Assembly (NCBI RefSeq): GCF_011022235.1
Contig: NZ_JAAIYP010000011.1
Location: 1-64,000 of the forward strand
DNA: 64,000 nt
Reading direction: 5' to 3'
Origin: Magnetospirillum aberrantis SpK
Lineage (GTDB): Bacteria; Pseudomonadota; Alphaproteobacteria; Rhodospirillales; Magnetospirillaceae
Part shown: positions 27,297 to 46,239 of the stretch, piece after piece
Position numbering within the stretch: position 1 is the first letter of the stretch
How the letters are laid out: every line of letters starts with the position of its first letter
The notes under the pieces: generated by a model
Seen by the model: only the letters and a program-made list of their open reading frames with translations
Database searches by the model: none
Told to the model about the DNA's origin: nothing
Made by a program: the position numbers and the translations under genes

Positions 27297-28025
27297 TCAG
27301 TCCTGTGGCCGCCATGTGGCGGCGGCGGCGATGGCGCGGTCCACTTCGGCGGTCAGGCGGTCGAGCAGGTGACGGTCGCTCAAATCCGATGGATCGCCTT
27401 TTTGGATGGCCTGGGCGGTTTCCGACAGGCGACGGCATCCGACGCTGCCGGCGGCACCTTTCAGACGGTGGGCGTTTTCACGCACGGTTCGGCTGTCCCC
27501 GGCTTCCCATGCAGCGGTGATGCGTGACAGTTCCTCGCGAAAGGATTGCGGGGCGGCGGCCAGCAGCGCCAGGACGGTGCTGTCGCCGACCCATTGCCGC
27601 ATGTCCTCGATATAATCCGGGTCGAGGGCGGGCGAGTTGTCGTCGGCGCCGCCAACAGCCCATTCCAGGGTCGCGGCAAGGCGGGACACGGTGACCGGCT
27701 GGGGCAAAATGGCGTCCAACCCATCGGCAAGGCAATTTTTCTCGGCCTCGTCGTCGTTCTCGGGGATCAACGCCACCAGCGGCAGGCGGGCCTTGTCGCC
27801 GGGCAGCATGCGAATCAGACGGACGGCGGTGGCTGTGTCCATCACCGACAGGTGCATGTTCATCAGCACAAGATGGACGTCACGTGTTGCCGCCAGTTCC
27901 AGCACATGTGCGCCGTGCTCGGCGATGACCACCGAATGCCCAAGCTTTTCCAGCATGTGACGCAACATGGCCTGATTGACCGGGTTGCTCTCGGCAAGCA
28001 GGACGCAAAGCGATGATGCGGCCAC
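27297..28025 (-). CDS. pseudo-receiver / Hpt phosphotransfer protein
   Basis: A 242-residue two-domain signalling protein. Residues 5-122 are a receiver fold whose key residues are changed: the phospho-acceptor position in 'LVLMNMHLSVMD' is Asn56 rather than Asp, the acidic pair is Glu12-Ser13, the Thr/Ser switch position is Ile87, and the invariant Lys is Gln109 (ILPQPV). It should not be phosphorylated in the usual way. Residues about 145-240 are an Hpt domain with the intact phosphorylatable His186 in 'NAHRLKGAAGSVG'. It probably accepts phosphate from a separate hybrid kinase. No kinase gene is adjacent. The gene diverges from the norEF-like pair. Confidence 0.85.
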   Translation of the reverse strand: MAASSLCVLLAESNPVNQAMLRHMLEKLGHSVVIAEHGAHVLELAATRDVHLVLMNMHLSVMDTATAVRLIRMLPGDKARLPLVALIPENDDEAEKNCLADGLDAILPQPVTVSRLAATLEWAVGGADDNSPALDPDYIEDMRQWVGDSTVLALLAAAPQSFREELSRITAAWEAGDSRTVRENAHRLKGAAGSVGCRRLSETAQAIQKGDPSDLSDRHLLDRLTAEVDRAIAAAATWRPQD

Positions 28026-30503: not shown

Positions 30504-30548
30504 GGCGTGTTACAAAAAACCTCGTGCGGGATAATGTGCGAGGGTGTC

Positions 30549-32249
30549 ATGCTTTTCTTCGATCATATGAAGATCGGCGCCAAGATCGCCATCGTTCCCA
30601 TTGTTGCCGCCTTGGGAATGGTGGTGGTCGCGGCTGTCGGCATGCGCGGCCTGTCGGAACAGCGTGCCTCCCTGAACGACATCGCCGACGTCTCGTTCGC
30701 CAAATCCGTCAGGATCGGAGCTCTGGCCAGCGTCATGCAGGCCGCCCACGCCGACCTTTACCGGTTGTTGACCTGGAATGCGGCCGGGGTCGACGAAAAG
30801 CAGATGGGCAAGGCCGAGGAAAGCTTCAACACAGAGCTGAAGCAGGCCGTGGACGATCTGGCCGCCTATCGTTCGGACCTTGCCTTGAACGAAGAGGAAC
30901 AGGCGCTTCTTGGGCGGATCGAACGGGCGCTGGCGTTGTATCGCGAGAACACGGACCAGGTGTTGTCCATGCAGCAGTTGGATTTCACCGCCGCCGTGTC
31001 GTTCATGTGGACAGCCCAGGACAATTTCCAGGCGCTGATGCGCGAGACCCGGCAAATGATCGCCCTTGAGGGGCGGCTGGTGGAAGAAGCCAAGAATGCC
31101 GCGGCGGCGGCGGCGGGGGCGACGCGGACGCTGTTCGTCACCATCACGGTGGGGGCCCTGGTGGCTCTGGCGTTGATCTCGCTGTTGCTGGGACGGGGCA
31201 TCGCGCGGGCGGTGGGGGGCATGACCGCAGCCATGGAACGGCTGGCACGCGGCGAGCTCGACACCCAGGTTCCGGCGATCGGCCGGCGTGACGAGATCGG
31301 TGCCATGGCTGGCGCGGTTCAAGTGTTCAAGGACAACGCGCTCAGGGTTCAGGCGCTGACCGCGGAACAGCAGGCCATGGCCCGCGAGGCGGAACAGGCC
31401 AAGCGCCGGGCTATGACCGACTTGGCCGACGAGATCGAGCAGAGCGTGCGCAGCGCCGTCGGTGCCGCATCGGCCGCCGCCGATTCCATCCGGGGCGAGG
31501 CCGAGGTGCTGGCCGTCAACGCGGAGACCGCGTCGGGCCGTTCGGCCGAGGCGGCGCAATCGTCCGAAGCGGCCAACGGCAACGTGGAAACCGTGGCGCA
31601 AGCCGCCGAACGTCTGGTTTCCGCCATCGGCGAGATCAATCGCCAGATATCCGAATCGTCGCAGGTGGCTAAGCAGGCGGTGGTCGAGGCCGCCCGCACC
31701 GACGAGACGGTCAAGGGGCTGACCCAGGCGTCAGCCAAGATCGGCGAGGTGGTGGGACTGATCAACGACATCGCGTCCCAGACCAATCTTTTGGCCTTGA
31801 ACGCGACCATCGAGGCGGCGCGGGCCGGCGAGGCCGGCAAGGGTTTCGCAGTGGTGGCCGGCGAGGTGAAAAGTCTGGCCAACCAGACCGCTCGGGCGAC
31901 CGAGGAAATCTCGGCGGAAATCAGCGCCATGAAAGGTGCCACCGATCAGGCGGTCAAAGCCATCGACGGCATCGTGGTGACAATTTCCCGCGTCAACCAA
32001 TCCTTGGCGGTCATCGCCGGCGCGGTGGCCGAACAGGGGCGCGCCACCGGCGAGATCAGTGAATCCGTGGCCCTGGCGGCCGACGGAACCCGCACGGTCA
32101 GCCATGGTATCGGCGAGGTACGTCGTGTCGCCGAGGAGGTGGGCACCGCCGCCGCCAACGTGCACGTCACCACCGAAGGTCTGGTGGAGGAATTTTCTCG
32201 CCTGCAATCGCAAGTGGATGGTCTGGTGTCGCGGCTGCGATCCGCGTGA
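30549..32249 (+). CDS. methyl-accepting chemotaxis protein
   Basis: A 566-residue transmembrane chemoreceptor. It has a membrane helix at about 12-32, a periplasmic helical sensor of about 155 residues (four-helix-bundle type), a second helix near 197-220, a HAMP domain, and a cytoplasmic signalling domain. The hairpin tip is canonical: 'QTNLLALNATIEAARAGEAG' followed by 'KGFAVVAGEVK'. There is no C-terminal CheR/CheB-tethering pentapeptide. ATG 30549 is preceded by 'gagggt'; MKIGAKIA at 30567 is an alternative. The next gene encodes a periplasmic Cache protein. A ligand cannot be named. Confidence 0.9.
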   Translation: MLFFDHMKIGAKIAIVPIVAALGMVVVAAVGMRGLSEQRASLNDIADVSFAKSVRIGALASVMQAAHADLYRLLTWNAAGVDEKQMGKAEESFNTELKQAVDDLAAYRSDLALNEEEQALLGRIERALALYRENTDQVLSMQQLDFTAAVSFMWTAQDNFQALMRETRQMIALEGRLVEEAKNAAAAAAGATRTLFVTITVGALVALALISLLLGRGIARAVGGMTAAMERLARGELDTQVPAIGRRDEIGAMAGAVQVFKDNALRVQALTAEQQAMAREAEQAKRRAMTDLADEIEQSVRSAVGAASAAADSIRGEAEVLAVNAETASGRSAEAAQSSEAANGNVETVAQAAERLVSAIGEINRQISESSQVAKQAVVEAARTDETVKGLTQASAKIGEVVGLINDIASQTNLLALNATIEAARAGEAGKGFAVVAGEVKSLANQTARATEEISAEISAMKGATDQAVKAIDGIVVTISRVNQSLAVIAGAVAEQGRATGEISESVALAADGTRTVSHGIGEVRRVAEEVGTAAANVHVTTEGLVEEFSRLQSQVDGLVSRLRSA

Positions 32250-32299
32250 CGGCGCCACGGCCGTATGAACCCGATGAAAAACAAGAGGAGGGACGGGAC

Positions 32300-32761
32300 G
32301 TGAGAAGTGTGTTCAAGATGGCGGCTGCCGCCGCTTTCGCCATGGCCGGGTTTGTTCCGGCCGCCTATGCCGACGAATGCGCGCCGGCTCAGGGATTGGT
32401 GGACAAGGCCATCACTCATTACAAGGATGTCGGCAAGGCCAAGGCTTTCGCCGATTTCATGGACAAGGGCAACAAGGAATGGGTGGACGGTGAATTGTAC
32501 GTCATCGTCAGCACCATGGACGGTATCTTCAAGGTGCACGCCATCAATCCCAAGTTGATCGACAATCCGCAATTGCCGACGCTCAAGGACACCAATGGCG
32601 TGATGATCATTCAGGAAATGATCCGGACCGGCAAGGCGACGCCCAATGGCGGCTGGGCCAAATACACCTGGACCCACCCGGAAACCAAAAAGCTTGCTCC
32701 CAAGCAAACTTGGGTGAAGGTGTATGACGACCAATTGTTCATGGCCGGCTGTTATCCCTGA
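32300..32761 (+). CDS. periplasmic single-Cache domain protein
   Basis: A 153-residue secreted protein. The start is GTG 32300 with a strong 'gaggaggga' site upstream; the longer open frame overlaps the MCP end. Residues 1-24 form a Sec signal peptide ending PAAYA|DE. The mature part resembles a small-molecule-binding single Cache domain: 'VDKAITHYKDVGKAKAFADF', 'DGELYVIVSTMDGIFKVHAI', and the terminal 'TWVKVYDDQLFMAGCYP'. Such stand-alone Cache proteins may deliver a ligand to a receptor; the MCP gene 50 bases upstream is the obvious candidate partner. Confidence 0.75.
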   Translation: MRSVFKMAAAAAFAMAGFVPAAYADECAPAQGLVDKAITHYKDVGKAKAFADFMDKGNKEWVDGELYVIVSTMDGIFKVHAINPKLIDNPQLPTLKDTNGVMIIQEMIRTGKATPNGGWAKYTWTHPETKKLAPKQTWVKVYDDQLFMAGCYP

Positions 32762-33114: not shown

Positions 33115-33136
33115 ACATGCGCACATGTGCGCATGT
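33115..33136. promoter_or_regulatory. 22-bp perfect palindrome, candidate operator of the parA-che operon
   Basis: ACATGCGCACA is followed immediately by its reverse complement TGTGCGCATGT. It ends 57 bases upstream of the parA ATG. A gapless palindrome of this length in a promoter region suggests a dimeric repressor/activator site; no cognate regulator is visible nearby. Confidence 0.5.
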
Positions 33137-33193: not shown

Positions 33194-34285
33194 ATGAAAC
33201 CGTATATCGTTGCCATCTTTAACCAAAAGGGCGGCATTTCGAAGACGACCACCAGCACGAACCTTGCGGTTTGTCTGGCGGCGTATGGTAAGTCTGTGGT
33301 GGTCATCGACCTGGATTCCCAAGGCGATTCCACCAAGAGTCTTGGCATCGACCCCAACGTGAAGCGCGGCATCTACGACCTGTTCGTCGGTTCCGCCGAG
33401 GTTGAGGAGGTCATGCAGGACACCGCGTTCGCGGGCGTCAAGGTCATTCCCTCGACCTACAGCTTGGCCGGCATCGAAATCCGGCTGTCCGAGCTCAAGG
33501 ATTCGCAGCGCACGCTGACCAACATCATCAGTCACACGGCGCTGGATTGCGATTACGTCATCATCGACTGCCCGCCGGCCCTGGGCATCCTTCCCATCAA
33601 CGCGCTAGCCGCCGCCCATGCGGTGATCATTCCGGTCACCGCCACGCCCTATGCCAACGATGGCTTGATGCGCACGCTTCCTTCCATCAAGTACGTCCAA
33701 GAGGGGCTGAACAAGGCCTTGTTGCTTCAGGGGGTGCTGTTCACCATCCATGACCGCAACAAGACCGCTCGCAAGATCAGCGAACTGATTCGCGCCCGTT
33801 TGGGTGGCACGGTCTATGGTGCCGAAATCCCGCGCGACACCATGGTCATCGAAGCCGCCACGGCCCGGTTGCCGGTCTGCGTCTACGCGCCCAAATCGGC
33901 CGCCGCTCAGGCTCATCTGGATTTCACCGGGGAATTCCTGGACCGTCACCAAAAGATCGCCGCCAAGGCTGGCGTGGTGGTGCCGCCACCGGGGCGGCGT
34001 GACGAGGCGCTGAACCGTCTTCTCGCCTGGCAGAGCGAACATGCGCACGAGGCCAGCCAACCCAATGGCGAGCGGGTGCGTCAACGCAAGCATCAGCTTG
34101 ACCGCATGCTTTATGGAAACCGCACTCCGCTTGAGCGTCTGCACCTTGGCGTGATTCATTTCTTTATCGAGAACCGGATTTCGCTGGTGGCTTTCTTGCT
34201 GGTGGTTCTGGCCGCCATGGTCACGCTGGTGGGCATGGGGGTCGAGGGTGTTCGCATGCTCGCCTCCACCATGGGTTTGTCCTGA
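33194..34285 (+). CDS. ParA-family ATPase with C-terminal membrane anchor, heading a chemosensory operon
   Basis: A 363-residue protein. Residues 1 to about 255 form a ParA/MinD-type P-loop ATPase: deviant Walker A 'NQKGGISKTTTSTNLA', 'VIDLDSQGDSTKSLG', Walker B-like 'YVIIDCPPALG'. A charged linker follows, and a hydrophobic helix at about 329-349 (ISLVAFLLVVLAAMV...) should anchor it in the inner membrane. No parB lies beside it. ParA relatives (ParC, PpfA) position chemotaxis arrays, and this gene sits 83 bases before cheW in the same direction, so array positioning or partitioning is the best inference. The start is ATG 33194 because MKPYIVAIFNQKGG is the normal ParA beginning. Confidence 0.85.
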   Translation: MKPYIVAIFNQKGGISKTTTSTNLAVCLAAYGKSVVVIDLDSQGDSTKSLGIDPNVKRGIYDLFVGSAEVEEVMQDTAFAGVKVIPSTYSLAGIEIRLSELKDSQRTLTNIISHTALDCDYVIIDCPPALGILPINALAAAHAVIIPVTATPYANDGLMRTLPSIKYVQEGLNKALLLQGVLFTIHDRNKTARKISELIRARLGGTVYGAEIPRDTMVIEAATARLPVCVYAPKSAAAQAHLDFTGEFLDRHQKIAAKAGVVVPPPGRRDEALNRLLAWQSEHAHEASQPNGERVRQRKHQLDRMLYGNRTPLERLHLGVIHFFIENRISLVAFLLVVLAAMVTLVGMGVEGVRMLASTMGLS

Positions 34286-34330
34286 TCCCGAAATATGTGT
34301 CTCTTTCGTGGATTGCGCGCTTTCCTTGCG

Positions 34331-34349
34331 TTTGGTTAAAATAACCAAA
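34331..34349. repeat. 8-bp inverted repeat between parA and cheW
   Basis: TTTGGTTA (34331-34338) and TAACCAAA (34342-34349) flank AAA. It lies 45 bases after parA and 20 bases before the cheW start. It may be an operator or a weak transcript-processing hairpin. Confidence 0.3.
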
Positions 34350-34368
34350 AGTTTTGGGGACAAACACG

Positions 34369-34875
34369 TTGGGCGGCGCGGGCGACGATCTTCATTCGGT
34401 GGTGATGTTCCGCCTGGGCGGCCAGCTTTTCGCCATCCCCGTCACTGACGTGCGCGAGGTTGTTCCCTATGCTTGGCTGGAACATCCCCCCCGCATGCCG
34501 GCCTTTGTCCAAGGCGTCCTGAATCTGGCCGGTACGGCGGTGCCGGTGTTGCGGCTGGACCGCCTTCTTGGGTTGGCGCAGTCTTCTTTCGGACTCGAAT
34601 CCTCGATTTTGATCATGACGGGTGCAGACGGGGGTGTCGGCCTGTTGGTCGACCATGTCGAAGGCGTGCGCGCCGCCGCCGATTTCCAGTTTTCGGCCAT
34701 CGATGACGGTCAATCCTTCCAGGGCTGCGTTAGCGGACAGATGCATGGGCCGCTGGGAAGCGCCCATCTGGTGTCGTGGCGTCAGGTGTTGCTGGAAGAG
34801 GAGCGCCAGCGTCTGGAGCAGTTCCGCCTCGATGCCGAACAAAGGCTGGCGCAATTGTCGGAAGGCCAGGGGTGA
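34369..34875 (+). CDS. cheW: CheW-like coupling protein (first copy)
   Basis: A 168-residue CheW-domain protein that would couple receptors to CheA. The family core reads 'VVMFRLGGQLFAIPVTDVREVV', visible in parts ('FRLGGQLFAIPV'), 'GVLNLAGTAVPVLRLDRLLG' and 'GLLVDHVEGV'. A Glu/Arg-rich C-terminal helix extends beyond the domain. The start is placed at TTG 34369 with 'ggggaca' 8 bases upstream; TTG 34354 and ATG 34405 are alternatives. The stop overlaps the GTG of cheR. It corresponds in position to WspB. Confidence 0.85.
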   Translation: MGGAGDDLHSVVMFRLGGQLFAIPVTDVREVVPYAWLEHPPRMPAFVQGVLNLAGTAVPVLRLDRLLGLAQSSFGLESSILIMTGADGGVGLLVDHVEGVRAAADFQFSAIDDGQSFQGCVSGQMHGPLGSAHLVSWRQVLLEEERQRLEQFRLDAEQRLAQLSEGQG

Positions 34876-36269
34876 GCGTGTCCGCCGCCACCGCCGCCGT
34901 CTTGGGCGATCCGTTCTTTCAACGTCTGAAGGCGTTGGTGATCGAAACCACCGGCATGGCCTTTTATGCCGACAAGGACGAGGATCTGGCCCGCATCGTC
35001 GCCGAACGCTTGACGGAAACCGGACTTGGGGTCTGTGCGCGCTATCTGGAGCTGATTGCCGACGTCGTGCGCGGCAAGGTCGAGATGGATGCGCTGGTGG
35101 CCGAGTTGACCATCGGCGAAACTTATTTCTTTCGCCATCGCGAACAATTCGACGCGCTGCGCGACATCATTCTGCCCGAAGCCCTGGTCCGCAACGAAGC
35201 CACCAGGTCGTTGCGCATCTGGAGTGCCGGTTGCGCCACCGGTCCCGAACCCTATTCTCTGGCGATCATGCTGAAACGCGAGTTCGGTCACCGCATCGCC
35301 GGCTGGAATGTCAGCATCCTGGGGACCGACATCAATCAGAAGTTCCTGGCCCGTGCCCGTGACGGCCGCTATGACGAATGGGCTTTCCGCGTCACCCCGG
35401 ATGCGGTGCGGCGCGAATGCTTCGACGCCGTCGGCAAGCAATGGCAGATCAAGCCGGAATTCAAGGATTGGGTCAGCTTTCAGTACCACAACCTCATTCG
35501 CAATCGTTTTCCGTCGCTGTTGGACAACCTTTCGGCCTTCGACGTCATCATCTGCCGTAACGTGGTGATCTATTTCAGCCGCGAGACGGTGGAAGCACTG
35601 GTGCCGTGCTTCCGCGAAAGTCTGGTGGACGGTGGCTGGCTGGTGATGGGACACGCCGAACCCAATATCGAATTGTTCCGCGATTTCCGCACCGTCAACA
35701 CCGAGGGCGCCGTGCTGTATCAGCGGGTCGACCGACCGCTTCCGTCGCGGGTCGCCCCCAAGGTCGTGCTGCCGATCCCGGAACCGCCGAAACGGTCGGA
35801 ACCGCGTTCCGCGCGGTCGACCAAGCCCAAGCCGGCACCCCGGCCGCAAGTGGCGGTGGGGCCGGCCTCGGACGGCGAGGTCGCGGCCGTCCGCGCCTTG
35901 GCCGACCAGGGAAAGTGGTCCGAGGCGATGGCCGCCTGCGACCGGCTGATCGCGGCCAACGTCTTGGACGCGGTCGCCCATTTCTACCGTGCCCTGGTGG
36001 CTGAACAACTGGGTGACCTTGAGGGCTGCGAAACCTATCTGAAGCGTGCCATTTATCTCGACCGTCACTTTGTCCTGCCCCATTATCACTTGGGGCTTTT
36101 CCTGTGGCGGCGCAACGACCCGGCAGGAGCCATGCGGTCGTTGCGCAACGTCGTGGCGTTGCTGAGACCGTTGCCGGACGATTTCGTGCTGGCGCATGGC
36201 GACGACATCACCGCCGGCCAATTGCGGGAAACGGTGGGCATGCATCTTGATCTGATCGGGGCGGCATGA
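34872..36269 (+). CDS. cheR: CheR-type methyltransferase with C-terminal TPR region
   Basis: A 465-residue SAM-dependent protein-glutamate methyltransferase acting on chemoreceptors. Residues about 10-275 are the CheR domain: 'AELTIGETYFFRHREQF', the SAM loop 'WSAGCATGPEPYSLAI', 'GTDINQKFLARAR', 'VIICRNVVIYF'. A Pro/Lys linker follows and then about two tetratricopeptide repeats (about 345-445, 'AVAHFYRALVAEQLGDLEGC'). WspC and the CheR3 type have this TPR tail. GTG 34872 overlaps the cheW stop (GTGA). The extension seen upstream belongs to cheW's other frame. Confidence 0.9.
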   Translation: MSVSAATAAVLGDPFFQRLKALVIETTGMAFYADKDEDLARIVAERLTETGLGVCARYLELIADVVRGKVEMDALVAELTIGETYFFRHREQFDALRDIILPEALVRNEATRSLRIWSAGCATGPEPYSLAIMLKREFGHRIAGWNVSILGTDINQKFLARARDGRYDEWAFRVTPDAVRRECFDAVGKQWQIKPEFKDWVSFQYHNLIRNRFPSLLDNLSAFDVIICRNVVIYFSRETVEALVPCFRESLVDGGWLVMGHAEPNIELFRDFRTVNTEGAVLYQRVDRPLPSRVAPKVVLPIPEPPKRSEPRSARSTKPKPAPRPQVAVGPASDGEVAAVRALADQGKWSEAMAACDRLIAANVLDAVAHFYRALVAEQLGDLEGCETYLKRAIYLDRHFVLPHYHLGLFLWRRNDPAGAMRSLRNVVALLRPLPDDFVLAHGDDITAGQLRETVGMHLDLIGAA

Positions 36270-36874
36270 GCGGGGCGAAGGAAACGGCGGGTCTGGTGGA
36301 ACGGCTGCATCGGCAGCTGGCGGCGGGATTCGACGTGAACGATCCCGTTTTCGTCGAACAGGTGCTGAAAGTGCGTGCGCGCCGACTGGCCGCTCCGCGT
36401 CAGCCCGAGGACGACCGTCCACAAGGGCTGGCCGTCCTGTGTTTCGCCATCGGCACCGAAAGCTACGCCTTGCCCTTGGCCGAGTTGGCCGAGGTGATGC
36501 CGTTGGCGCAATGGACGCCGGTACCGGGTTTGGCCCAGCACCTGTTGGGGGTCACCAACGTGCGCGGGGAGATCCATCCGGTGCTGAACCTGCATGCCAT
36601 GCTGACCCTGCCCGAACCCGAGGGGAGCGGACGCGCCTATGTGGTGTTCCTGCGCACGCCCGGCCGTGCCGTGGGGCTTCGCGTCGATGGCCTCAGCCGC
36701 ATTCGGTTCATCGATCCCGCACGGTTGACCGTACCGCACGAGACGGCCAACGGGCTGCCCCAGCGTTTCGTCGCCGGGATATCACCGGAAACCCTGATTT
36801 TGCTTGATGCCCGACAAATTCTGGCGCTCGACCTGCTCCAGGACCGCCGGGCCGACTATCGCCGCGCCACCTGA
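36266..36874 (+). CDS. cheW: CheW-like coupling protein (second copy)
   Basis: A 202-residue CheW-domain protein with about 55 extra residues at the N-terminus before 'LAVLCFAIGTESYALPLAEL'. Other family segments are 'HLLGVTNVRGEIHPVLNLHAM' (in parts) and 'AVGLRVDGLSRIRFID'. It overlaps cheR by ATGA, so it is translationally coupled. A second, longer CheW in this position matches WspD. Two different CheWs suggest that two receptor-binding modes or array interfaces are used by one CheA. Confidence 0.85.
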   Translation: MSGAKETAGLVERLHRQLAAGFDVNDPVFVEQVLKVRARRLAAPRQPEDDRPQGLAVLCFAIGTESYALPLAELAEVMPLAQWTPVPGLAQHLLGVTNVRGEIHPVLNLHAMLTLPEPEGSGRAYVVFLRTPGRAVGLRVDGLSRIRFIDPARLTVPHETANGLPQRFVAGISPETLILLDARQILALDLLQDRRADYRRAT

Positions 36875-36887
36875 AGGAAAAACGAGG

Positions 36888-38507
36888 ATGCACACCGCCG
36901 AATTCTCCGTGTGGAAGAAGATCACACTGCGCCGGAAGCTGATCATCGTGGCGGCGCTGTTTACCATGGTGTTGGGCGGGCTGATCGTCTTTAACGCCGC
37001 GATCCTGAATGCGCAAAAGGACCAGGGAACGGTGGGTGGGCTGGCTGCGCGCCAACGCACCTTGGTTCACCGCGCGGTCGAGGAAATGGTGCTGGTCGGG
37101 ATCGGACAGCCGGCCGATCTTGAGGCAACGTTCAAGCTGCTCAAGGATTCGCAAGAGGTTTTGCTGGACGGCGGCATGCTGCCCGGTGCCGAGACGACTG
37201 GTCTGCAAGGCATGATGCCGGCGACCCAGAACACCGAGATCCGGTCCCGCCTGATGGAACAAGGAACCCTGATCCGGGCGCTCGAGGCCGAGGCCGCTCG
37301 CTATCTGGCGCTGGCCGCCAACGATACCCGGCGGGGCGATAGGTTGCGTGAGGTGCGGGGTGCGGCGGCCAACCTACAGCAATCGGTCGAACAGATCATG
37401 CGGCTTTATGTCAATGATCGCGAGACCCGTCTCAACCAGGCCATCTTCTGGCAGGTGGTGGGCGGCATCGTCGTCGCCTTGGCCGGCGTCACCATCTCGA
37501 CGGTGATCAGCCGCCAGTTGGCCGACCCGCTGGCGTCGTGCGCCGCCGCCGCCCGCGAGATCGCCCAGGGCAACCTGCGCCAAAGCCAGCTGACCGTCAC
37601 TTCGGCCGACGAAGTGGGGGTGCTCCAGCAATCCTTCAACGAAATGCTGACGTCCTTGCGCGACATCGCCCTGCAATCGCGTTCTGTATGCGAGAACCTG
37701 ACTTTGGCCGCCGCCCAAATCCTGACCTCGACCCAGGAACAGGCCGCCGGCACCAAACAGCAGGCGGCGGCGGTCCAGGAAATCACCACCACGGTCGAAC
37801 AGATCAACCTGTCCTCGAAACAGGTGGCGGAACGTTCGCGTCAGGTCGCGGGCACGGCGGATGCGGTGTCGCAATCGGGCCATGCCGGCCTTCAGGCGGT
37901 GCACGAGGCCAGTGTCGGAATGGAAGCCATTCGCGAACAGGCGGAAAACGTCGCCGAGAACATCATCACGCTGTCCGAGCGGACCCAGGCCGTGGGCGAA
38001 ATCATCGCCACCGTCAACGACATCGCCGAGCAATCCAATCTGGTGGCGCTGAATGCTGCCATCGAGGCGGCCGACGCCCGCGAATCGGGGCGCCGTTTCT
38101 CGGTGGTGGCGGGCGAGATCAAGAACCTCGCCGATCAGGCCAAGGAAGCCACCGCTCAGGTGCGCGGCATCCTGGAACAGACGCAGAAGGGCATCAACAC
38201 CTCTGTCATGCTGACCGAGGAAGCCCTGAAGCGCGTCGAGACCGGACGCGAACGCACCAACGTCTCGGAACAGGTCATCCGCCAGATGGCCAACAACATC
38301 CAAGAGAGCGTCCAGGCCTTCCAACAGATTGTCGGCGCCACCAACCAGCAACAGATCGGTCTGGAACAGGTGACCCAGGCGTTGCATGAAATCCGTCAGG
38401 CCAGCCAACAGACCGCCGCCACCACCGGCCAGTTGGAAAAGGCGGCGGTGGAACTGACCCGCCTGGGCGAGCAACTGGCCAAGACGCTGGAGAAGTACAA
38501 GCTTTGA
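36888..38507 (+). CDS. methyl-accepting chemotaxis protein of the che cluster (PilJ-like sensor)
   Basis: A 539-residue chemoreceptor. Membrane helices lie at about 20-42 and 185-207. The periplasmic part begins with 'LAARQRTLVHRAVEEMVLVG', the type IV pilus/PilJ-NIT-like N-terminal sensor pattern. HAMP follows, then a signalling domain. Its hairpin tip deviates from the usual AARAGExGRGF and reads 'EAADARESGRRFSVVAGEIK'. Start ATG 36888 has 'aacgagg' before it. The stop overlaps the TTG start of cheA. It is the only receptor in the cluster and is thus its probable dedicated input, comparable to WspA. Confidence 0.88.
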   Translation: MHTAEFSVWKKITLRRKLIIVAALFTMVLGGLIVFNAAILNAQKDQGTVGGLAARQRTLVHRAVEEMVLVGIGQPADLEATFKLLKDSQEVLLDGGMLPGAETTGLQGMMPATQNTEIRSRLMEQGTLIRALEAEAARYLALAANDTRRGDRLREVRGAAANLQQSVEQIMRLYVNDRETRLNQAIFWQVVGGIVVALAGVTISTVISRQLADPLASCAAAAREIAQGNLRQSQLTVTSADEVGVLQQSFNEMLTSLRDIALQSRSVCENLTLAAAQILTSTQEQAAGTKQQAAAVQEITTTVEQINLSSKQVAERSRQVAGTADAVSQSGHAGLQAVHEASVGMEAIREQAENVAENIITLSERTQAVGEIIATVNDIAEQSNLVALNAAIEAADARESGRRFSVVAGEIKNLADQAKEATAQVRGILEQTQKGINTSVMLTEEALKRVETGRERTNVSEQVIRQMANNIQESVQAFQQIVGATNQQQIGLEQVTQALHEIRQASQQTAATTGQLEKAAVELTRLGEQLAKTLEKYKL

Positions 38508-40825
38508 ACGGCATCCGCGAAAGGCTGCTTGCGGCCTTCCAGGTGGAATATCGCGAACACCTGGAGGTCATCCGCAAACTGCTCGACGATTTGGTTCGTC
38601 GGACGGAAGGCAGCGGCATCGCCCAGTTGGATGAAACTTTTCGCCGCGCCCATTCTCTGAAGGGCGCGGCCCGTGCCGTCGATTTGTTGCCGGTCGAACA
38701 GCTGGCTCATCGCCTGGAAACCCTTTTCGCCCGCGTCCGTGGCGGCCAGATGCGGCTGGACAAGGAATTGTCCGCCGTGGTCGTCCATATCCTCGATCTG
38801 GTCGAGGATTGGGTCACGGCCTTCGTCGCCGGGCAGACACCGCCCGAAACCGCCGAGGCGGTGGCGTTGATCGAGCAATGGCTGGAGGGCGAAAGACCGC
38901 CGCCGCCGGCCCATTGCGCCCCGGCTCCCCCGCCGGCTCTCCCGTCGGTTCCGCCAATGGTGACGGTCCCCCCGGAACTGGTCGCCGCCGTGCCGGCACC
39001 GCCGCCATCGCCGCCGGCACGATCCGCGCAGTCCGAACCGCCGCCGGCTGTCGAACCGCCGCGCGGGCCGGTGGTGGCCGAGGAAACCGTGCGGGTGCGG
39101 GCACTGCATCTGGACCGTCTGTTGCGCAGTTCCAACGAATTGCTGACCGAGACCATGAACCAGCGCACGGTCACCGACAGCCTGTTGGACATGGACCGCC
39201 GATTGGCGGACATGGACCGGCACTGGCGGCGCCTGCGCAAACTGTCGGTGGGCTGGTTGCGCGAGATGGCTGACGAGGCGCGCGAGGGGCAGTTCGAACG
39301 CCAGGCCGAAATCCTGGAGCAGCAATTGCGGGCGGTGTCGCGTCGGGCCCGGCTGTCGCGGCGGCTGCAACAGCGCACCGGATGGAGCCTGCGGCAACTG
39401 GCGGCGGATTTGCAACAGGAAGTGCGTGACGCCCGCATGGTGCCGGCGGAAAGCGTGTTCGCCGGCTTTCGCAAGATGGTGCGCGACATCGCCCGCGAAT
39501 CGGGCAAGCTGGTTGAGGTTCAGGTGACCGGCCTTGAGGTCGAGGCCGACCGCATGGTGCTTCAGGGGCTCAAGGACCCGGTCATGCACCTGTTGCGCAA
39601 CGCCCTGGCCCATGGTGTGGAAGCGCCCGAGCAACGTCAGGATGTCGGAAAACCCGCCGGAGCCGTGGTGAGTCTGGGCTTCGCCGTGACCGAAGGGCGT
39701 CTGGTGGTCATGGTCGAGGACGACGGGCGTGGCCTCGACTATGCCGCCATCCGGGCCAAAGCGGTGGAGGTCGGCCTGTTCAACGCCGATGAGGCGGAGG
39801 AGCTGTCGCGCCAGACCCTGGTGGACCTGATTTTCGATCCCGGTTTTTCCACCAATCGGGCGGTGGACGATCTGTCGGGGCGCGGCATGGGGCTGTCCGT
39901 GGTGCGCGAGGCGGTGACCATGATGAACGGGACCATCGAGGTGCTGGCGCGCGAACCGGCGGGAACGCGGTTTCGCATCTCGGTGCCGTTGTCTGTGTCG
40001 ACCCAACGCCTGTTCCTGGTCGGGTGCCAAGGACACACCTATGCCGTGCCGACGGAGGGTGTCGACCGGCTGCACCGGGTACCGGCCGAGGCGGTGCGGA
40101 CGGTCGAGGGTAAATCTGTCGTCTATCTGGGCGAGCAGCAGGTGCCCTTGTTGTCGTTGGCCCATCTGCTGGCGCTGGGCGAGACGGCGGTCAAGGTCAG
40201 CCGCAACGTGGTGCCGCTGTTGGTGTTGAAGAACGGCGACCGCCGGGTGGCGGTGGCGGTGGACGAGTTCCTGTCCATCCGCGAAGCCCTGGTCAAGGAT
40301 ATCGGCGTGCCGGCCGCCATGGGCACCATGGTCGCCGGCGGCATGTTGCTGGAAGACGGCGGCGTCGCCTTGGTGCTCAATCCGTTCGAGATCGTCGAGA
40401 CCTTCCGCAAGTCGGGCTCGATCCGCGTGCTGACCACGGTGGAGAAACCACCGGAACGGCGGGCGCCGGTCATCTTGGTGGTCGACGATTCGCTGACCAC
40501 CCGCACGCTCGAGAAATCCATCCTCGAGGCCCATGGCTATGGCGTGCGTCTGGCCGTGGACGGCATCGAGGCGTTGGCCAAGCTGCGTGCCGACCATGTC
40601 GACCTGGTCATATCCGACATCCAGATGCCTCGGCTTGACGGTTTCGGCCTGTTGCAGGCCATCAAGGCCGACCAGGCGCTGAAGAAGCTGCCGGTCATCC
40701 TGGTCACCTCGCTCGAGGCGCGCGAGGATCGCGAACGCGGTCTTGCCTTGGGCGCCGACGCCTATGTGGTCAAACGCAAGTTCGACCAGAAGGAACTTCT
40801 CGAAACCATCGGACAGATTCTATGA
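38504..40825 (+). CDS. cheA: CheA histidine kinase-receiver hybrid
   Basis: A 773-residue chemotaxis kinase. It has an N-terminal Hpt (P1) domain with the phospho-accepting His50 in 'RAHSLKGAARAV', and a Pro-rich region (about 130-190) in place of a recognisable P2. Dimerisation and ATPase domains follow with N-box 'HLLRNALAHGVE', 'VEDDGRGLD' and 'GRGMGLSVV', then a CheW-like domain, and a C-terminal receiver with Asp705 in 'VISDIQMP' and Lys in 'YVVKRKFD'. CheA-receiver hybrids are typical of Wsp, Frz and Che3 systems rather than flagellar ones. It begins at TTG 38504 overlapping the MCP stop and ends overlapping cheB (ATGA). Confidence 0.93.
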   Translation: MNGIRERLLAAFQVEYREHLEVIRKLLDDLVRRTEGSGIAQLDETFRRAHSLKGAARAVDLLPVEQLAHRLETLFARVRGGQMRLDKELSAVVVHILDLVEDWVTAFVAGQTPPETAEAVALIEQWLEGERPPPPAHCAPAPPPALPSVPPMVTVPPELVAAVPAPPPSPPARSAQSEPPPAVEPPRGPVVAEETVRVRALHLDRLLRSSNELLTETMNQRTVTDSLLDMDRRLADMDRHWRRLRKLSVGWLREMADEAREGQFERQAEILEQQLRAVSRRARLSRRLQQRTGWSLRQLAADLQQEVRDARMVPAESVFAGFRKMVRDIARESGKLVEVQVTGLEVEADRMVLQGLKDPVMHLLRNALAHGVEAPEQRQDVGKPAGAVVSLGFAVTEGRLVVMVEDDGRGLDYAAIRAKAVEVGLFNADEAEELSRQTLVDLIFDPGFSTNRAVDDLSGRGMGLSVVREAVTMMNGTIEVLAREPAGTRFRISVPLSVSTQRLFLVGCQGHTYAVPTEGVDRLHRVPAEAVRTVEGKSVVYLGEQQVPLLSLAHLLALGETAVKVSRNVVPLLVLKNGDRRVAVAVDEFLSIREALVKDIGVPAAMGTMVAGGMLLEDGGVALVLNPFEIVETFRKSGSIRVLTTVEKPPERRAPVILVVDDSLTTRTLEKSILEAHGYGVRLAVDGIEALAKLRADHVDLVISDIQMPRLDGFGLLQAIKADQALKKLPVILVTSLEAREDRERGLALGADAYVVKRKFDQKELLETIGQIL

Positions 40826-41871
40826 GCCAGAAAATACGGGTCCTCATCGTAGAAGACTCGCTGGTGGTGCGCGAGCTCTTGTCCCACATCATCGGTTCCG
40901 ACGACCGTTTCGACGTGGTGGCCGCGGTGGAAAGCGCCGAGGAAGGGCTGGAACTCCTGAACGTGATGCGGCCCGACGTCATTTCCCTCGACATCCGGTT
41001 GCCGGGGATGAACGGCCTGGACGCCACCCTTCAGATCATGGCCAAGCGGCCGACTCCCATCGTGGTGGTCGCCGCCAACGTCGACGACGACGAATTGAAC
41101 ATCGCCATGAACGCGCTACGCGCCGGGGCCTTGGCGGTGGTGGAAAAGCCGGTCGGTGTCACCAACGCCGCCTTCGAATCCATGGCCCGCCACCTGTGTA
41201 CCCAATTGGCGATCATGAGCCAGGTCAAGGTGGTTCGTCAGGGGATCGACCGGGGGCTGAACTTCGGTGCCAAGGCGCCGGCGGTGGTGCCGCGCCGCTC
41301 GGGCCAGGGCTATGCCATGGTCGGTATCGTCTCCTCCACCGGCGGCCCCCAGGCCCTGGTGCAGATGCTGGGCGGGCTGGGGGCCGGGTTCGCATTGCCG
41401 ATCCTGTTGGTTCAGCACATCACCGCCAGTTTTCTCGACGGCTTTGTGTCCTGGTTGTCCGGGGTCACGCCGTTCAAGGTGCGAATTGCCCAAGATGGCG
41501 ACTCTCCCGAAGCCGGCACCGTCCTGGTTCCGCCGGCTGACCGGCACATGGCGCTCAAGGACGGGCGGGTGGTGTTGCTCGACACGCCGCCGCTGTGCAG
41601 CCAAAAGCCGTCGGGATCGGTGCTGTTGTCGTCTTTGGCCCGCGACCAGGGGCGTCGGGCCATCGGCGTGGTGTTGACCGGCATGGGCGCCGACGGTGCC
41701 GAGGGCATGGCGGAAATGCACCGGGCCGGTGCTTACACCATCGCCGAGGACGAAAGCACCTGCGTGGTTTACGGCATGCCGGCGGCGGCGGCGAAGCTTG
41801 GCGCGGTCAAGGAAATGCTGCCGCTGCCGGGGATCGCGCCGCGTCTGGTCCAGTTGACGGAGGGCAAGTGA
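40822..41871 (+). CDS. cheB: CheB protein-glutamate methylesterase
   Basis: A 349-residue response-regulator methylesterase that removes methyl groups from chemoreceptors. The N-terminal receiver has Asp57 in 'ISLDIRLPGMNG' and Lys109 in 'VVEKPVG'. The C-terminal esterase has its triad in 'VSSTGGPQ' (Ser172), 'LVQHI' (His199) and 'GMGADGAEG' (Asp291). The start ATG overlaps the cheA stop and the stop TGA overlaps the next ATG. The position corresponds to WspF, suggesting receptor adaptation in this pathway. Confidence 0.93.
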   Translation: MSQKIRVLIVEDSLVVRELLSHIIGSDDRFDVVAAVESAEEGLELLNVMRPDVISLDIRLPGMNGLDATLQIMAKRPTPIVVVAANVDDDELNIAMNALRAGALAVVEKPVGVTNAAFESMARHLCTQLAIMSQVKVVRQGIDRGLNFGAKAPAVVPRRSGQGYAMVGIVSSTGGPQALVQMLGGLGAGFALPILLVQHITASFLDGFVSWLSGVTPFKVRIAQDGDSPEAGTVLVPPADRHMALKDGRVVLLDTPPLCSQKPSGSVLLSSLARDQGRRAIGVVLTGMGADGAEGMAEMHRAGAYTIAEDESTCVVYGMPAAAAKLGAVKEMLPLPGIAPRLVQLTEGK

Positions 41872-43574
41872 TGGCGGAAGCGTCAGATTCCCTGATCCTG
41901 ATTGTCGAGGATTCGGCGACACAGGCGCTCAAGCTTCAGCATGTGCTGGAGAGCGAGGGGTTTCGCACGGTATGCGCCTATTCCGGTGAAGAGGCGTTGG
42001 AACAGCTTAATCGCATGCTGCCCAACCTGATGATCATCGACTATCACTTGCCGGGCATCCAAGGCGACGAGCTGTGCCGTCAGGTGCACATGGATCTGAC
42101 CACCCGTTCCATTCCCATCCTGATGCTGACCGCCGACGAGACACAGGCGACCGAGTTGCACGGGTTGGAATCGGGGGCCGACGACTTCGTCGCCAAGTCC
42201 GAGGACGTGGGCATCCTGCTGCTCAGGGTGCACAACCTGTTGCGCAAGTCGCGTCAGGATTCGGCCGTGCTTGATGTGGCGCGGTCGCTGTTTCGCCGTG
42301 CCCGCGTGCTGATCATCGACGACAGCCACACCTATCGCGAGACCCTGGCCCAGGAACTGCGCGAAGACGGCTGCGAGGTGGTGCAGGTGACCAGCGGCCC
42401 CGAGGGTTTGGCGCAATTGCGGGAACGCGACTATGACTGCGTCATGGTCGACATGGTCATGCCCGACATGGATGGCATCGCCGTGTGCCAGGAACTGTCA
42501 GCCCGACGCAACGACAGCGAGGCCCCGCTGGTGGTGCTGATGCTGTCGGCCTATGAGAACAAGGAGAACGTCACCCGCGCGCTTGAGGCCGGTGCCGACG
42601 ACTTCATCGGCAAGTCCACCGAGATGAGCGTGCTGCGGGCTCGGCTGCGAGCGCTTCTGCGCCGCAAGTTCCTGTTGGAGCAGAACCAGCGGATCATCGA
42701 GGAATTCCGTCTGCGCGAGATGGAAACCCTGCGCGCCAAGGCCGAGAAGGAAGCGGCCGAGGCCCGTGCCGCCCTGGCCGAAGGCCTGGCGCGGGCCAAC
42801 GCCGAACTTGAAGAGGCTAACGCCAAGCTGCGCGAGACCCAGGTGCATCTGATCCAATCGGAGAAGATGGCGTCGCTCGGCCAATTGGTGGCCGGCATCG
42901 CGCACGAGATCAACAACCCGCTGTCCTTTGCCCTGTCCAACGTCTTTTCCATCCAGTCGTGGCTGGGCGACGTGCTGCTGGAGGCCGGCGACAGCCTGAC
43001 GCCCGAAGCGCGGGCGCGCCTGGAAAAAGCCAACGCCCGTATCGTCGATACCGGCCAGGGATTGGAACGGGTGCGTGAACTGGTGGTCAAGCTGCGCACC
43101 TTCTCACGGCTGGACGAGGGTGAGTTCAAGACCATCGACGTGCGGGAAGCCATTGAATCGGTGTTGCTGTTCCTGCGTCACAAGACATCCGACCGGATCG
43201 AGGTGGTGCGCGATTATGGCCCTACCGGGGAATTGGCGTGTTTTGCCGGTCAGCTCAACCAGGTGCTGATGAACATCGTCGCCAACGCCGTTGACGCCAT
43301 CGCCGACGACGGTACCATCATCGTGCGCACGGCGATAGAGGATGGGGATTTCCTGATCGCGGTGAAGGACAGCGGGTGCGGCATTGCCCGCGAGCATGTG
43401 GAACACATTTTCGACCCCTTCTTCACCACGAAACCGGTGGGACAGGGGACAGGCCTGGGATTGGCCATCACCTACAAGATCGTCCAGGCCCACAAGGGCC
43501 GTGTCCAGGTGGACAGCGAACCGGGCAAGGGCACGGAAATTCGTGTCCTCATTCCAACCGGGCTTGTGCCCTGA
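41871..43574 (+). CDS. tandem-receiver hybrid histidine kinase (REC-REC-HK; CheS3-like)
   Basis: A 567-residue soluble kinase. The first receiver (about 8-125) has Asp in 'MIIDYHLPG' and Lys in 'FVAKSED'; the second (about 145-265) has 'VMVDMVMPDMDG' and 'FIGKSTE'. Both appear competent. A coiled coil (about 285-325) leads to a histidine kinase core with His345 in 'GIAHEINNPLSF', N-box 'NIVANAVDAI' and 'GTGLGLAI'. No transmembrane segment is present, so its input is probably phosphate from CheA. From memory, CheS3 of Rhodospirillum centenum has this layout and receives phosphate from CheA3 in cyst control. It is coupled to cheB by a TGATG overlap. Confidence 0.9.
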   Translation: MAEASDSLILIVEDSATQALKLQHVLESEGFRTVCAYSGEEALEQLNRMLPNLMIIDYHLPGIQGDELCRQVHMDLTTRSIPILMLTADETQATELHGLESGADDFVAKSEDVGILLLRVHNLLRKSRQDSAVLDVARSLFRRARVLIIDDSHTYRETLAQELREDGCEVVQVTSGPEGLAQLRERDYDCVMVDMVMPDMDGIAVCQELSARRNDSEAPLVVLMLSAYENKENVTRALEAGADDFIGKSTEMSVLRARLRALLRRKFLLEQNQRIIEEFRLREMETLRAKAEKEAAEARAALAEGLARANAELEEANAKLRETQVHLIQSEKMASLGQLVAGIAHEINNPLSFALSNVFSIQSWLGDVLLEAGDSLTPEARARLEKANARIVDTGQGLERVRELVVKLRTFSRLDEGEFKTIDVREAIESVLLFLRHKTSDRIEVVRDYGPTGELACFAGQLNQVLMNIVANAVDAIADDGTIIVRTAIEDGDFLIAVKDSGCGIAREHVEHIFDPFFTTKPVGQGTGLGLAITYKIVQAHKGRVQVDSEPGKGTEIRVLIPTGLVP

Positions 43575-43593
43575 TCGCCACGAGGAGGGGGCC

Positions 43594-45195
43594 ATGGCAT
43601 TGAGACCCGGCAAGGAAAACGTTCTGGTCGTCGATGACGAACCGCAAATTCTGACCGCCATCACCGACCTGATCGAGGACGAGTTCGCGGTGTGGACGGC
43701 CAGTGACGGTCCAACCGCGCTCAAGATCCTGGAAATGCAGGAAATGTCGGTGATCTTGTCGGATCAGCGCATGCCCGGCATGTCAGGGGCCGAGTTCCTG
43801 GGGGCGGCACGGGAAATCTCGGACGCCACACGTGTCCTGGTCACCGGTTATTCCGACCTGGATGCCCTGGTCAAGGCGGTCAACCTGGGTCAGATCCATG
43901 CCTATCTGTCAAAGCCATGGAACCCGCTAGAACTCAAGGTGGTGGTGCGAACCGCCGCCGATCGCTGGCGTCTGGGCCGCACGTTGCAGCACGAACGCAA
44001 CTTGCTGCGGTCGCTGATGGACAACGTGCCGGATGCCATCTTCTTCAAGGACCGTTCGTTGCACTTCACGCGGGTCAACCCGGCCCAGGCCAAGGTGTTG
44101 GGCGTCGAGGGATCGAACGAAGTCGTGGGGCACATGCTGGGCGATCTGGTGCCGCAGGAACGAGCCGCCTTGGTCGAGGAGCAGGAGCGCGACGTCATCG
44201 AACGTGGCGCCCCCATGGTCGACCGGGTCGAATCCATGCTCGATTCCGAAGGCAACGCCCATTGGTATTCCATCACCAAGGTGCCGATCCGCGAGCGTGA
44301 TCAGGTGGTGGGACTGGTCGGTATCGCCCGTGACATCACCAAGCGCAAGCAGGCCGAGGATTACCTGCGCCGTGCCCACGAGGAACTGCAAAAGGCGGTC
44401 GAGGAGCGCACGCGCTGGCTGCGTCAGGAAATCCGCCGCCGTGCCCAAGCCGAGGAACAGACCCGTGCCGCCCGCGACACCGCCGAGGCAGCCAGCCGGG
44501 CCAAGACCATCTTCCTGGCCAATATGAGCCACGAACTGCGAACCCCCTTGAACGCCATCATCGGCTTCGCCGAATTGGCGGCGACGTTGATGAACGACCA
44601 AGAAAGCCAGCGCCTTGCCGGCTATATGGGCGACATCACCGAATCAGCCCACCACCTGCTTCGGGTGATCAACGACATCTTGGACGTGTCGCGTATCGAG
44701 GTGGGCAAGGTGACGCTGCGCGAGGAGGACGTGGATGTCGCCCTGGTGATCCAGTCGGCCATGCGGCTGGCAGGGCACGTGGCCGCCGCCAAGCACCAGA
44801 CCCTGGCGTTGCGCATGGCCGACCCCTTTCCCCGGCTTTCCGCCGACGAGCGTCTGTTGAAGCAGATATTGCTCAACATCGTGTCCAACGCCGCCAAGTT
44901 CACGCCCGAGGGCGGCCATGTCACCGTGACGGCCGAAGAGGTGGACGGAGCCATTCGCATCACGATCGAGGACGACGGCGTCGGCATCGCCCCACACGAC
45001 ATTCCGCTGGTGCTGCAACCTTTCGGTCAGGCGGAAAATACCCTGACCCCAAAGCACGAAGGCACCGGTCTTGGTTTGCCGCTGGCCAAGGGTTTTATGG
45101 AACTGCACGGCGGCACGCTGGAACTGAAATCCGAGGTGGGCAAGGGAACGCGCATCACCCTGACCTTCCCGCCAGAGCGCACGGTCAAGACGTGA
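43594..45195 (+). CDS. receiver-PAS hybrid histidine kinase (REC-PAS-HK)
   Basis: A 533-residue soluble kinase ending the che cluster. Residues about 8-125 are a receiver with 'VILSDQRMPGMSG' and Lys in 'YLSKPWNPLEL', a type common in NtrC/HD-GYP proteins. A PAS/PAC domain (about 135-255) and a coiled coil follow. The HisKA domain has 'NMSHELRTPLNAIIGFAEL' and the ATPase has 'NIVSNAAKFTPEGG', 'DDGVGI' and 'GTGLGLPL'. ATG 43594 is preceded by 'gaggagggg', 19 bases after the previous stop. It could be a second output kinase of the chemosensory pathway. No DNA-binding or GGDEF output follows. Confidence 0.9.
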   Translation: MALRPGKENVLVVDDEPQILTAITDLIEDEFAVWTASDGPTALKILEMQEMSVILSDQRMPGMSGAEFLGAAREISDATRVLVTGYSDLDALVKAVNLGQIHAYLSKPWNPLELKVVVRTAADRWRLGRTLQHERNLLRSLMDNVPDAIFFKDRSLHFTRVNPAQAKVLGVEGSNEVVGHMLGDLVPQERAALVEEQERDVIERGAPMVDRVESMLDSEGNAHWYSITKVPIRERDQVVGLVGIARDITKRKQAEDYLRRAHEELQKAVEERTRWLRQEIRRRAQAEEQTRAARDTAEAASRAKTIFLANMSHELRTPLNAIIGFAELAATLMNDQESQRLAGYMGDITESAHHLLRVINDILDVSRIEVGKVTLREEDVDVALVIQSAMRLAGHVAAAKHQTLALRMADPFPRLSADERLLKQILLNIVSNAAKFTPEGGHVTVTAEEVDGAIRITIEDDGVGIAPHDIPLVLQPFGQAENTLTPKHEGTGLGLPLAKGFMELHGGTLELKSEVGKGTRITLTFPPERTVKT

Positions 45196-46224: not shown

Positions 46225-46239
46225 GTTCTATGCCTGTTC
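46225..46239. promoter_or_regulatory. LexA box (GTTC-N7-GTTC) upstream of lexA
   Basis: GTTC-TATGCCT-GTTC is an exact match to the direct-repeat LexA operator of alphaproteobacteria. It lies 60 bases upstream of the lexA ATG. Additional GTTC half-sites at 46219 and 46242 flank it. This indicates autoregulation of lexA and, by extension, SOS induction of the downstream small gene. Confidence 0.8.

Follow-up and report, generated by a model that had tools for sequence, protein, structure and literature searches.

What does a chemotaxis-like operon control when it ends in sensor kinases and has no linked CheY gene? A locus of Magnetospirillum aberrantis SpK raises this question. The operon lies in the window (the whole stretch of 64,000 nucleotides that was analyzed, contig C11 of a 4.15 Mb genome), where the che genes and two kinase genes span 34354–45195, parA excluded (Table 1). 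Its signal probably goes to two ordinary sensor kinases and not to the flagellum. An earlier note, made from the sequence alone, had listed the encoded domains from a membrane ParA to HK2, and Pfam found every one of them in the same order. The note also had nearly all genes joined by overlaps. Five of the eight junctions do overlap (cheW1/cheR, cheR/cheW2, mcp/cheA, cheA/cheB and cheB/hk1); the other three are gaps of at least 68 nt (parA/cheW1), 13 nt (cheW2/mcp) and 19 nt (hk1/hk2). Promoter and terminator scans yielded about as much as shuffled sequences did, and among the NCBIfam matches listed for the operon proteins only CheB scored above cut-off.

Table 1. Genes of the locus, with coordinates taken from the start-codon table.
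Feature	Coordinates	Strand	Evidence
parA-like ATPase, C-terminal membrane helix	33194..34285	+	Pfam AAA_31 1.7e-49
cheW1	34354..34875	+	Pfam CheW 3.6e-24; alternative start GTG 34399
cheR + C-terminal TPR	34872..36269	+	Pfam CheR 5.6e-48; TPR matches weak
cheW2, N-terminal extension	36266..36874	+	Pfam CheW 1.2e-25
MCP (HAMP, MCPsignal)	36888..38507	+	Pfam; hydropathy; comparison with E. coli Tar
cheA: Hpt-HATPase-CheW-REC	38504..40825	+	Pfam; CheA trees
cheB (REC-methylesterase)	40822..41871	+	Pfam CheB_methylest 4.9e-54
HK1: REC-REC-HisKA(HEINNP)-HATPase, both receivers intact	41871..43574	+	Pfam; phospho-site residues
HK2: REC-PAS-HisKA(HELRTP)-HATPase	43594..45195	+	Pfam; HK tree

The REC-REC-kinase HK1 and the REC-PAS-kinase HK2 directly follow cheB and are, as proposed, the linked outputs of the operon. 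Pfam found no CheY, CheD, CheZ or GGDEF regulator among ten flanking ORFs (27297–53014), again in line with the note. Both kinases look soluble, with no membrane-grade segment (best hydropathy over 19 residues, 1.12 for HK1 and 1.26 for HK2). The description of them as hybrid kinases needs correction as to layout: their receivers are N-terminal only, and none is C-terminal. Phospho-site residues are present in both HK1 receivers and in the HK2 receiver.

The next gene downstream of hk2 is lexA, on the opposite (minus) strand. An exact GTTC-N7-GTTC, the pattern of the alphaproteobacterial LexA box, stands near its start (46225–46239); the window has three matches to this motif against 2.5 expected by chance. 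Farther on, a 790-residue protein (50642–53014) has a beta-lactamase-like domain at its C terminus and, ahead of it, a below-cut-off match to membrane methyltransferase families. Upstream of parA, Pfam identified an MCP and an sCache protein; the MCP, with a four-helix-bundle sensor, comes first and overlaps the sCache gene by four bases (30507–32761). A relative of the Cache gene precedes parA in 8 of the 13 family loci that we fetched, the others being cut near there. A perfect 22-bp palindrome (33115–33136) lies 57 bp upstream of the parA start; it occurs once in the window, and a comparison with 20 upstream regions from relatives turned up nothing similar. A REC-Hpt protein (27297–28025, minus strand), encoded about 6 kb ahead of the operon, is a possible phosphotransfer intermediate.

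Relatives of HK1 (E ≤ 1e-80) were found in 28 of the 248 genomes of the order, including 21 of the 37 genomes of the family with our own genome counted; of the other 20 family genomes that have hk1, 13 supplied loci for comparison. The order cheW-cheR-cheW-mcp-cheA-cheB-hk1 was kept in all 13, so the operon is not a chance assembly. A parA gene directly precedes it in 12, and hk2 follows hk1 in 10, a separate hk2 being missing from the remaining three. Seven loci were fetched from other families, and six of them keep the core order through to hk1; cheW2 in L059 and most of cheR in L065 were not matched whole. L061 is an unlinked second REC-REC match in genome G008 whose counterpart in the HK1 search holds one in-frame stop, and it was excluded from the alignments. 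None of the five other-family loci whose contig extends far enough has hk2 after hk1. Because hk2 is absent from these five and from three family loci, it is not essential to this type of operon. In L063 the gene that follows hk1 on the same strand encodes 574 residues with no Pfam match. The nine-gene order, which the earlier note proposed to look for across Rhodospirillales, is not general: parA adjoins the operon only in the fetched loci of the window's family, and it is the core that is more widespread. One more family genome, G240, outside the 13 fetched loci and with a distant HK1 relative (37%), has parA directly followed by cheW2-mcp-cheA (L186, 1–4505); cheW1 and cheR are absent there.

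A search with CheA reached further. Among its best 80 relatives in named genomes, several of them the same genomes as in the HK1 search, profiles placed a REC-REC-kinase directly after cheB in 37, with a second REC-kinase behind it in 27 of these. In ten others a separate receiver gene is followed by a kinase-REC gene; the remaining 33 have other layouts, are cut short or show no cheB. The window is thus not alone in its two-kinase layout, which Microvirga, Methylobacterium, Roseomonas and Caulobacteraceae share, HK2 having an extra C-terminal receiver there.

CheA itself retains the Hpt histidine and the REC aspartate and has no P2 or P3 Pfam match. Trees were built on kinase-to-receiver regions, a quick one with 72 rows and a careful one with 52; the latter omits 20 rows, for the most part near-duplicates or long branches, Burkholderia and Halomonas among them. 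The careful tree places the window CheA, with support of 100/100, inside a clade whose members show two receivers after cheB wherever the gene is visible (in L074 it lies beyond the contig). E. coli CheA splits off together with the other three CheAs encoded in the window's genome (100/100; the quick tree is weaker with the same grouping). Grouping with flagellar-class kinases had been named in advance as the result that would overturn the earlier note; the window CheA stands apart from the flagellar references, which in these trees are E. coli CheA and the three CheAs of its own genome only. The Burkholderia and Halomonas CheAs fall outside the dual-receiver clade on long branches (quick tree), and Halomonas shows, with REC-REC-GGDEF, that dual receivers also occur outside it. 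The position of CheA, the multidomain response regulator outputs and the CheR-TPR detected by Pfam all mark a pathway of alternative function. CheR-TPR mostly belongs to such pathways (PMC3447774). A kinase output as such is ordinary, because about 40% of the regulators in cheR-TPR clusters bear a kinase module (PMC3447774).

Two membrane helices flank the periplasmic part of the receptor (hydropathy 2.49 at 18 and 2.21 at 190). The signaling hairpin is 14 residues longer per arm than that of E. coli Tar, which has 36 heptads, and the receptor is thus of the 40-heptad type; it lacks the C-terminal pentapeptide of Tar. Among six MCPs tested, the periplasmic part matched PilJ above cut-off in two (L060 and L063) and below it in L046; those of the window, L189 and L086 gave no match.

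Judged by sequence, the receiver pair is the constant element of the dual-receiver clade and the kinase joined to it is what changes. The pair is joined to a HEINNP-type kinase in the window, Microvirga, Methylobacterium and others, to a HELRTP-type kinase in most loci from other families of the order, to a PAS-HWE kinase in Che3-type loci and, in L080, to a kinase that also bears an Hpt domain and one more receiver. In Azospirillum the pair has no kinase, and the kinase gene is separate. By parsimony, the kinase type must have changed at least five times among 46 rows and the receiver state at least five times among 53, with Methylobacterium coded as having lost the second receiver, though its aspartate is kept and the other residues are not. 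Four phospho-site positions per receiver were scored in 57 proteins, comprising 53 of the 55 clade rows and four more from Azospirillum; L074 and L075, from which no dual-receiver protein was extracted, lie outside this set. At least one receiver is fully intact, with all four residues, in 57/57. Both are intact in 23, the second is lost in 15 and keeps only the aspartate in seven, and the first is lost in 11 (10 Azospirillum and L077) and keeps only the aspartate in one. The decayed first receiver of Azospirillum is not seen by Pfam and was placed by profile or alignment. The sample is clumped, so these losses represent about five events, not 57. The sampled lineages have lost one receiver or the other, and none has lost both.

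Three relatives carry a natural fusion. In L056 (G146), L057 (G118) and L058 (G126) the hk1 gene encodes the two receivers and coiled coil of HK1 followed by the kinase core of HK2; the locus no longer holds HK1's own kinase, nor an hk2 gene apart. The fused kinase half of L056 and L057 is 54–75% identical to family HK2s and 25–35% to HK1 kinases, and all three fused kinases nest in the HK2 clade of the HK tree (SH-aLRT 100, subgroup 97). The same layout appears in the named records of P. kuznetsovii (L066) and an uncultured Rhodospirillaceae bacterium (L069), which are two of these three genomes, not additional cases. Because HK1 receivers have been joined to an HK2 core, the fusion ties the two proteins to one pathway; within what can be read from sequence, it is the strongest argument for such a shared pathway. 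An ancestral single kinase that later split into HK1 and HK2 is not favored, given the two-kinase layout of Microvirga, Methylobacterium, Roseomonas and Caulobacteraceae, and the HK tree leaves the direction, split or fusion, unsettled. The constant receiver pair, the reciprocal receiver losses and the fusion are the less ordinary features of the system, and our limited search of partly available literature found no description of them.

The fusion also bears on the strongest competing explanation, that CheA phosphorylates HK1 and HK2 in parallel and each serves a different regulator. Each protein has a receiver of its own with phospho-site residues, and the two kinase domains fall in different groups of the HK tree, as two separate outputs would have it. 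A gene that combines the parts of both, with the rest lost from the locus in three relatives, fits one shared output better, and we regard the parallel arrangement as possible though doubtful.

A second issue is whether ParA belongs to the system, as the earlier note implied by counting it in the operon. The predicted membrane anchor is there: the window protein has a hydrophobic helix at its C terminus (Kyte-Doolittle 2.77 over 19 residues), and such a tail was found in all 21 aligned proteins, a set that includes the window protein and relatives without the che operon. This form of ParA seems confined to the family, matches that reach the tail being present in 27/37 family genomes; in the 211 genomes outside it only two ParA matches reached E ≤ 1e-60, and both stop before the tail. 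PpfA and ParC position arrays elsewhere, and ParA could likewise be a working part that positions the receptor array. Its place beside the operon in 12/13 fetched family loci and its presence in 21/21 family genomes with hk1 would suit such a role. Yet parA is also present in 6 of the 16 family genomes without hk1. One of these (G176) is cut by the contig end, and the fetched flanks of the other five have no cheW, cheR, cheA or cheB, with an MCP gene near parA in two. In G152 and G237 parA stands directly beside the lexA homologue, which in the window lies beyond the che operon, and no parA was found at the operon in the fetched loci of other families. A part in positioning the array is therefore unlikely. 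Because parA is kept without the che operon, and in two genomes directly beside lexA, it makes more sense as a resident of the locus and is probably, on this comparison of sequences, an independent neighbor.

Among known systems, the closest is Che3 of Rhodospirillum centenum, and the kinship that the earlier note suggested is supported: the window CheA joins those of the Che3-type loci of Indioceanicola and Azospirillum oleiclasticum (96/89, careful tree), which stand in for R. centenum, itself absent from the tree. These two loci have a receiver gene before cheW and a REC-REC-PAS-HWE kinase with a decayed second receiver, the layout published for CheS3 (PMC3868531). Che3 (CheA3-CheS3-CheY3) shares with the window a CheA with its own receiver, two CheW, CheR, CheB, an MCP and a REC-REC kinase after cheB. 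In R. centenum, CheA3 phosphorylates its own receiver and CheS3-REC1, and CheS3 phosphorylates CheY3 (PMC3868531). The window differs in several respects. CheS3 is a PAS-HWE kinase with alanine at the aspartate position of its second receiver (PMC3868531), and HK1 has neither feature. Che3 also has CheY3 within its cluster and one kinase beside CheA3 (PMC3868531), whereas Pfam found no REC-only, CheY3-like protein among the cluster and the flanking ORFs tested. The Che3-type CheY of Indioceanicola matched nothing in the window's genome, an empty answer of little weight. Frz of Myxococcus xanthus likewise combines a CheA that has its own receiver with a two-receiver protein; FrzE acts on the dual receiver FrzZ, and its own receiver is a likely sink (PMC4546325). 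Unlike HK1, FrzZ has no kinase, and the window has no stand-alone dual receiver; the most Frz-like members are those of Azospirillum, in which the receiver pair stands alone and has a decayed first half.

The Wsp label given by the earlier note did not survive: the MCP gene is not first, Pfam showed no REC-GGDEF protein in the cluster or among the flanking ORFs, and the window CheA belongs to the dual-receiver clade. Wsp membership was rejected on gene order, output and CheA grouping. In a looser version, a Wsp-type surface sensor would use a kinase output like Burkholderia WspH to drive biofilm formation via a remote regulator. The inventory, including CheR-TPR and CheA-REC, is the same; WspH is a REC-kinase output within a Wsp system, with RowR as its suspected unlinked regulator (PMC8552884), and WspE is likewise reported without recognizable P2 and P3 regions. 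However, the che genes of the B. stagnalis Wsp locus begin with the MCP gene, and a single REC-kinase lies upstream; in the window the MCP gene follows cheW2 and precedes cheA, and the receiver is dual, not single. The Burkholderia CheA lies outside the dual-receiver clade (a long branch in the quick tree, absent from the careful one), and Wsp is reported from beta- and gammaproteobacteria only (PMC8552884). We consider this version improbable. A fourth flagellar chemotaxis system that has lost its CheY is hardly credible: magnetospirilla do use several che operons, and deletion of cheOp1 and cheOp4 affects aerotaxis in M. gryphiswaldense (PMC12442639), but the CheA tree, the multidomain outputs and CheR-TPR (PMC3447774) speak against it.

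We favor, with reasonable though not high confidence, a Che3-like chemosensory pathway of alternative function in which CheA signals to the dual receiver of HK1, both kinases belong to a single pathway, and the output leaves through an unlinked regulator. The parts, their conservation, the grouping of CheA, the intact phospho-site residues and the natural HK1-HK2 fusion were observed; from these we infer every phosphotransfer step, the sign of each and the output, for which the earlier note proposed a developmental or surface-related role. The membrane receptor and two CheW couplers would gate CheA, with CheR-TPR and CheB adapting the receptor system. Phosphorylated CheA would be drained by its own receiver and, under strong drive, would phosphorylate the dual receiver of HK1, by homology with the step from CheA3 to CheS3-REC1. 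The phosphorylated pair would switch the HK1 kinase, and the signal would pass to or beside HK2, the likelier last kinase, and on to the unlinked response regulator. Several points count against this reading. Both receivers are intact in the window, unlike those of CheS3, and input may be split between them; the HK1 kinase differs in family from the HWE kinase of CheS3; and some loci of the type have no separate hk2.

A more speculative generalization casts the REC-REC protein behind cheB as an adaptor, through which one chemosensory core can be coupled to whichever sensor kinase is available. The window would then have a three-kinase series from CheA through HK1 and HK2 to an unlinked regulator, which the relatives shortened by fusing the adaptor onto HK2, and either receiver could work. 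We put this forward tentatively.

The genome of G140, a member of the same genus that we take to be M. gryphiswaldense MSR-1, carries the operon. The four CheA and four CheB of the window's own genome are in line with the four che operons of M. gryphiswaldense, of which cheOp1 and cheOp4 are F5 and F7 systems (PMC12442639); by elimination, the window operon is probably cheOp2 or cheOp3. Our search of partly available literature found no function for these two. The operon thus apparently occurs in a laboratory species for which that literature assigns no role to two che operons out of four. The phosphate route is known for few non-flagellar chemosensory pathways. Here the fusion and the reciprocal receiver losses indicate which domains should talk to one another, and thus allow the path from CheA to a separate kinase to be tested directly.
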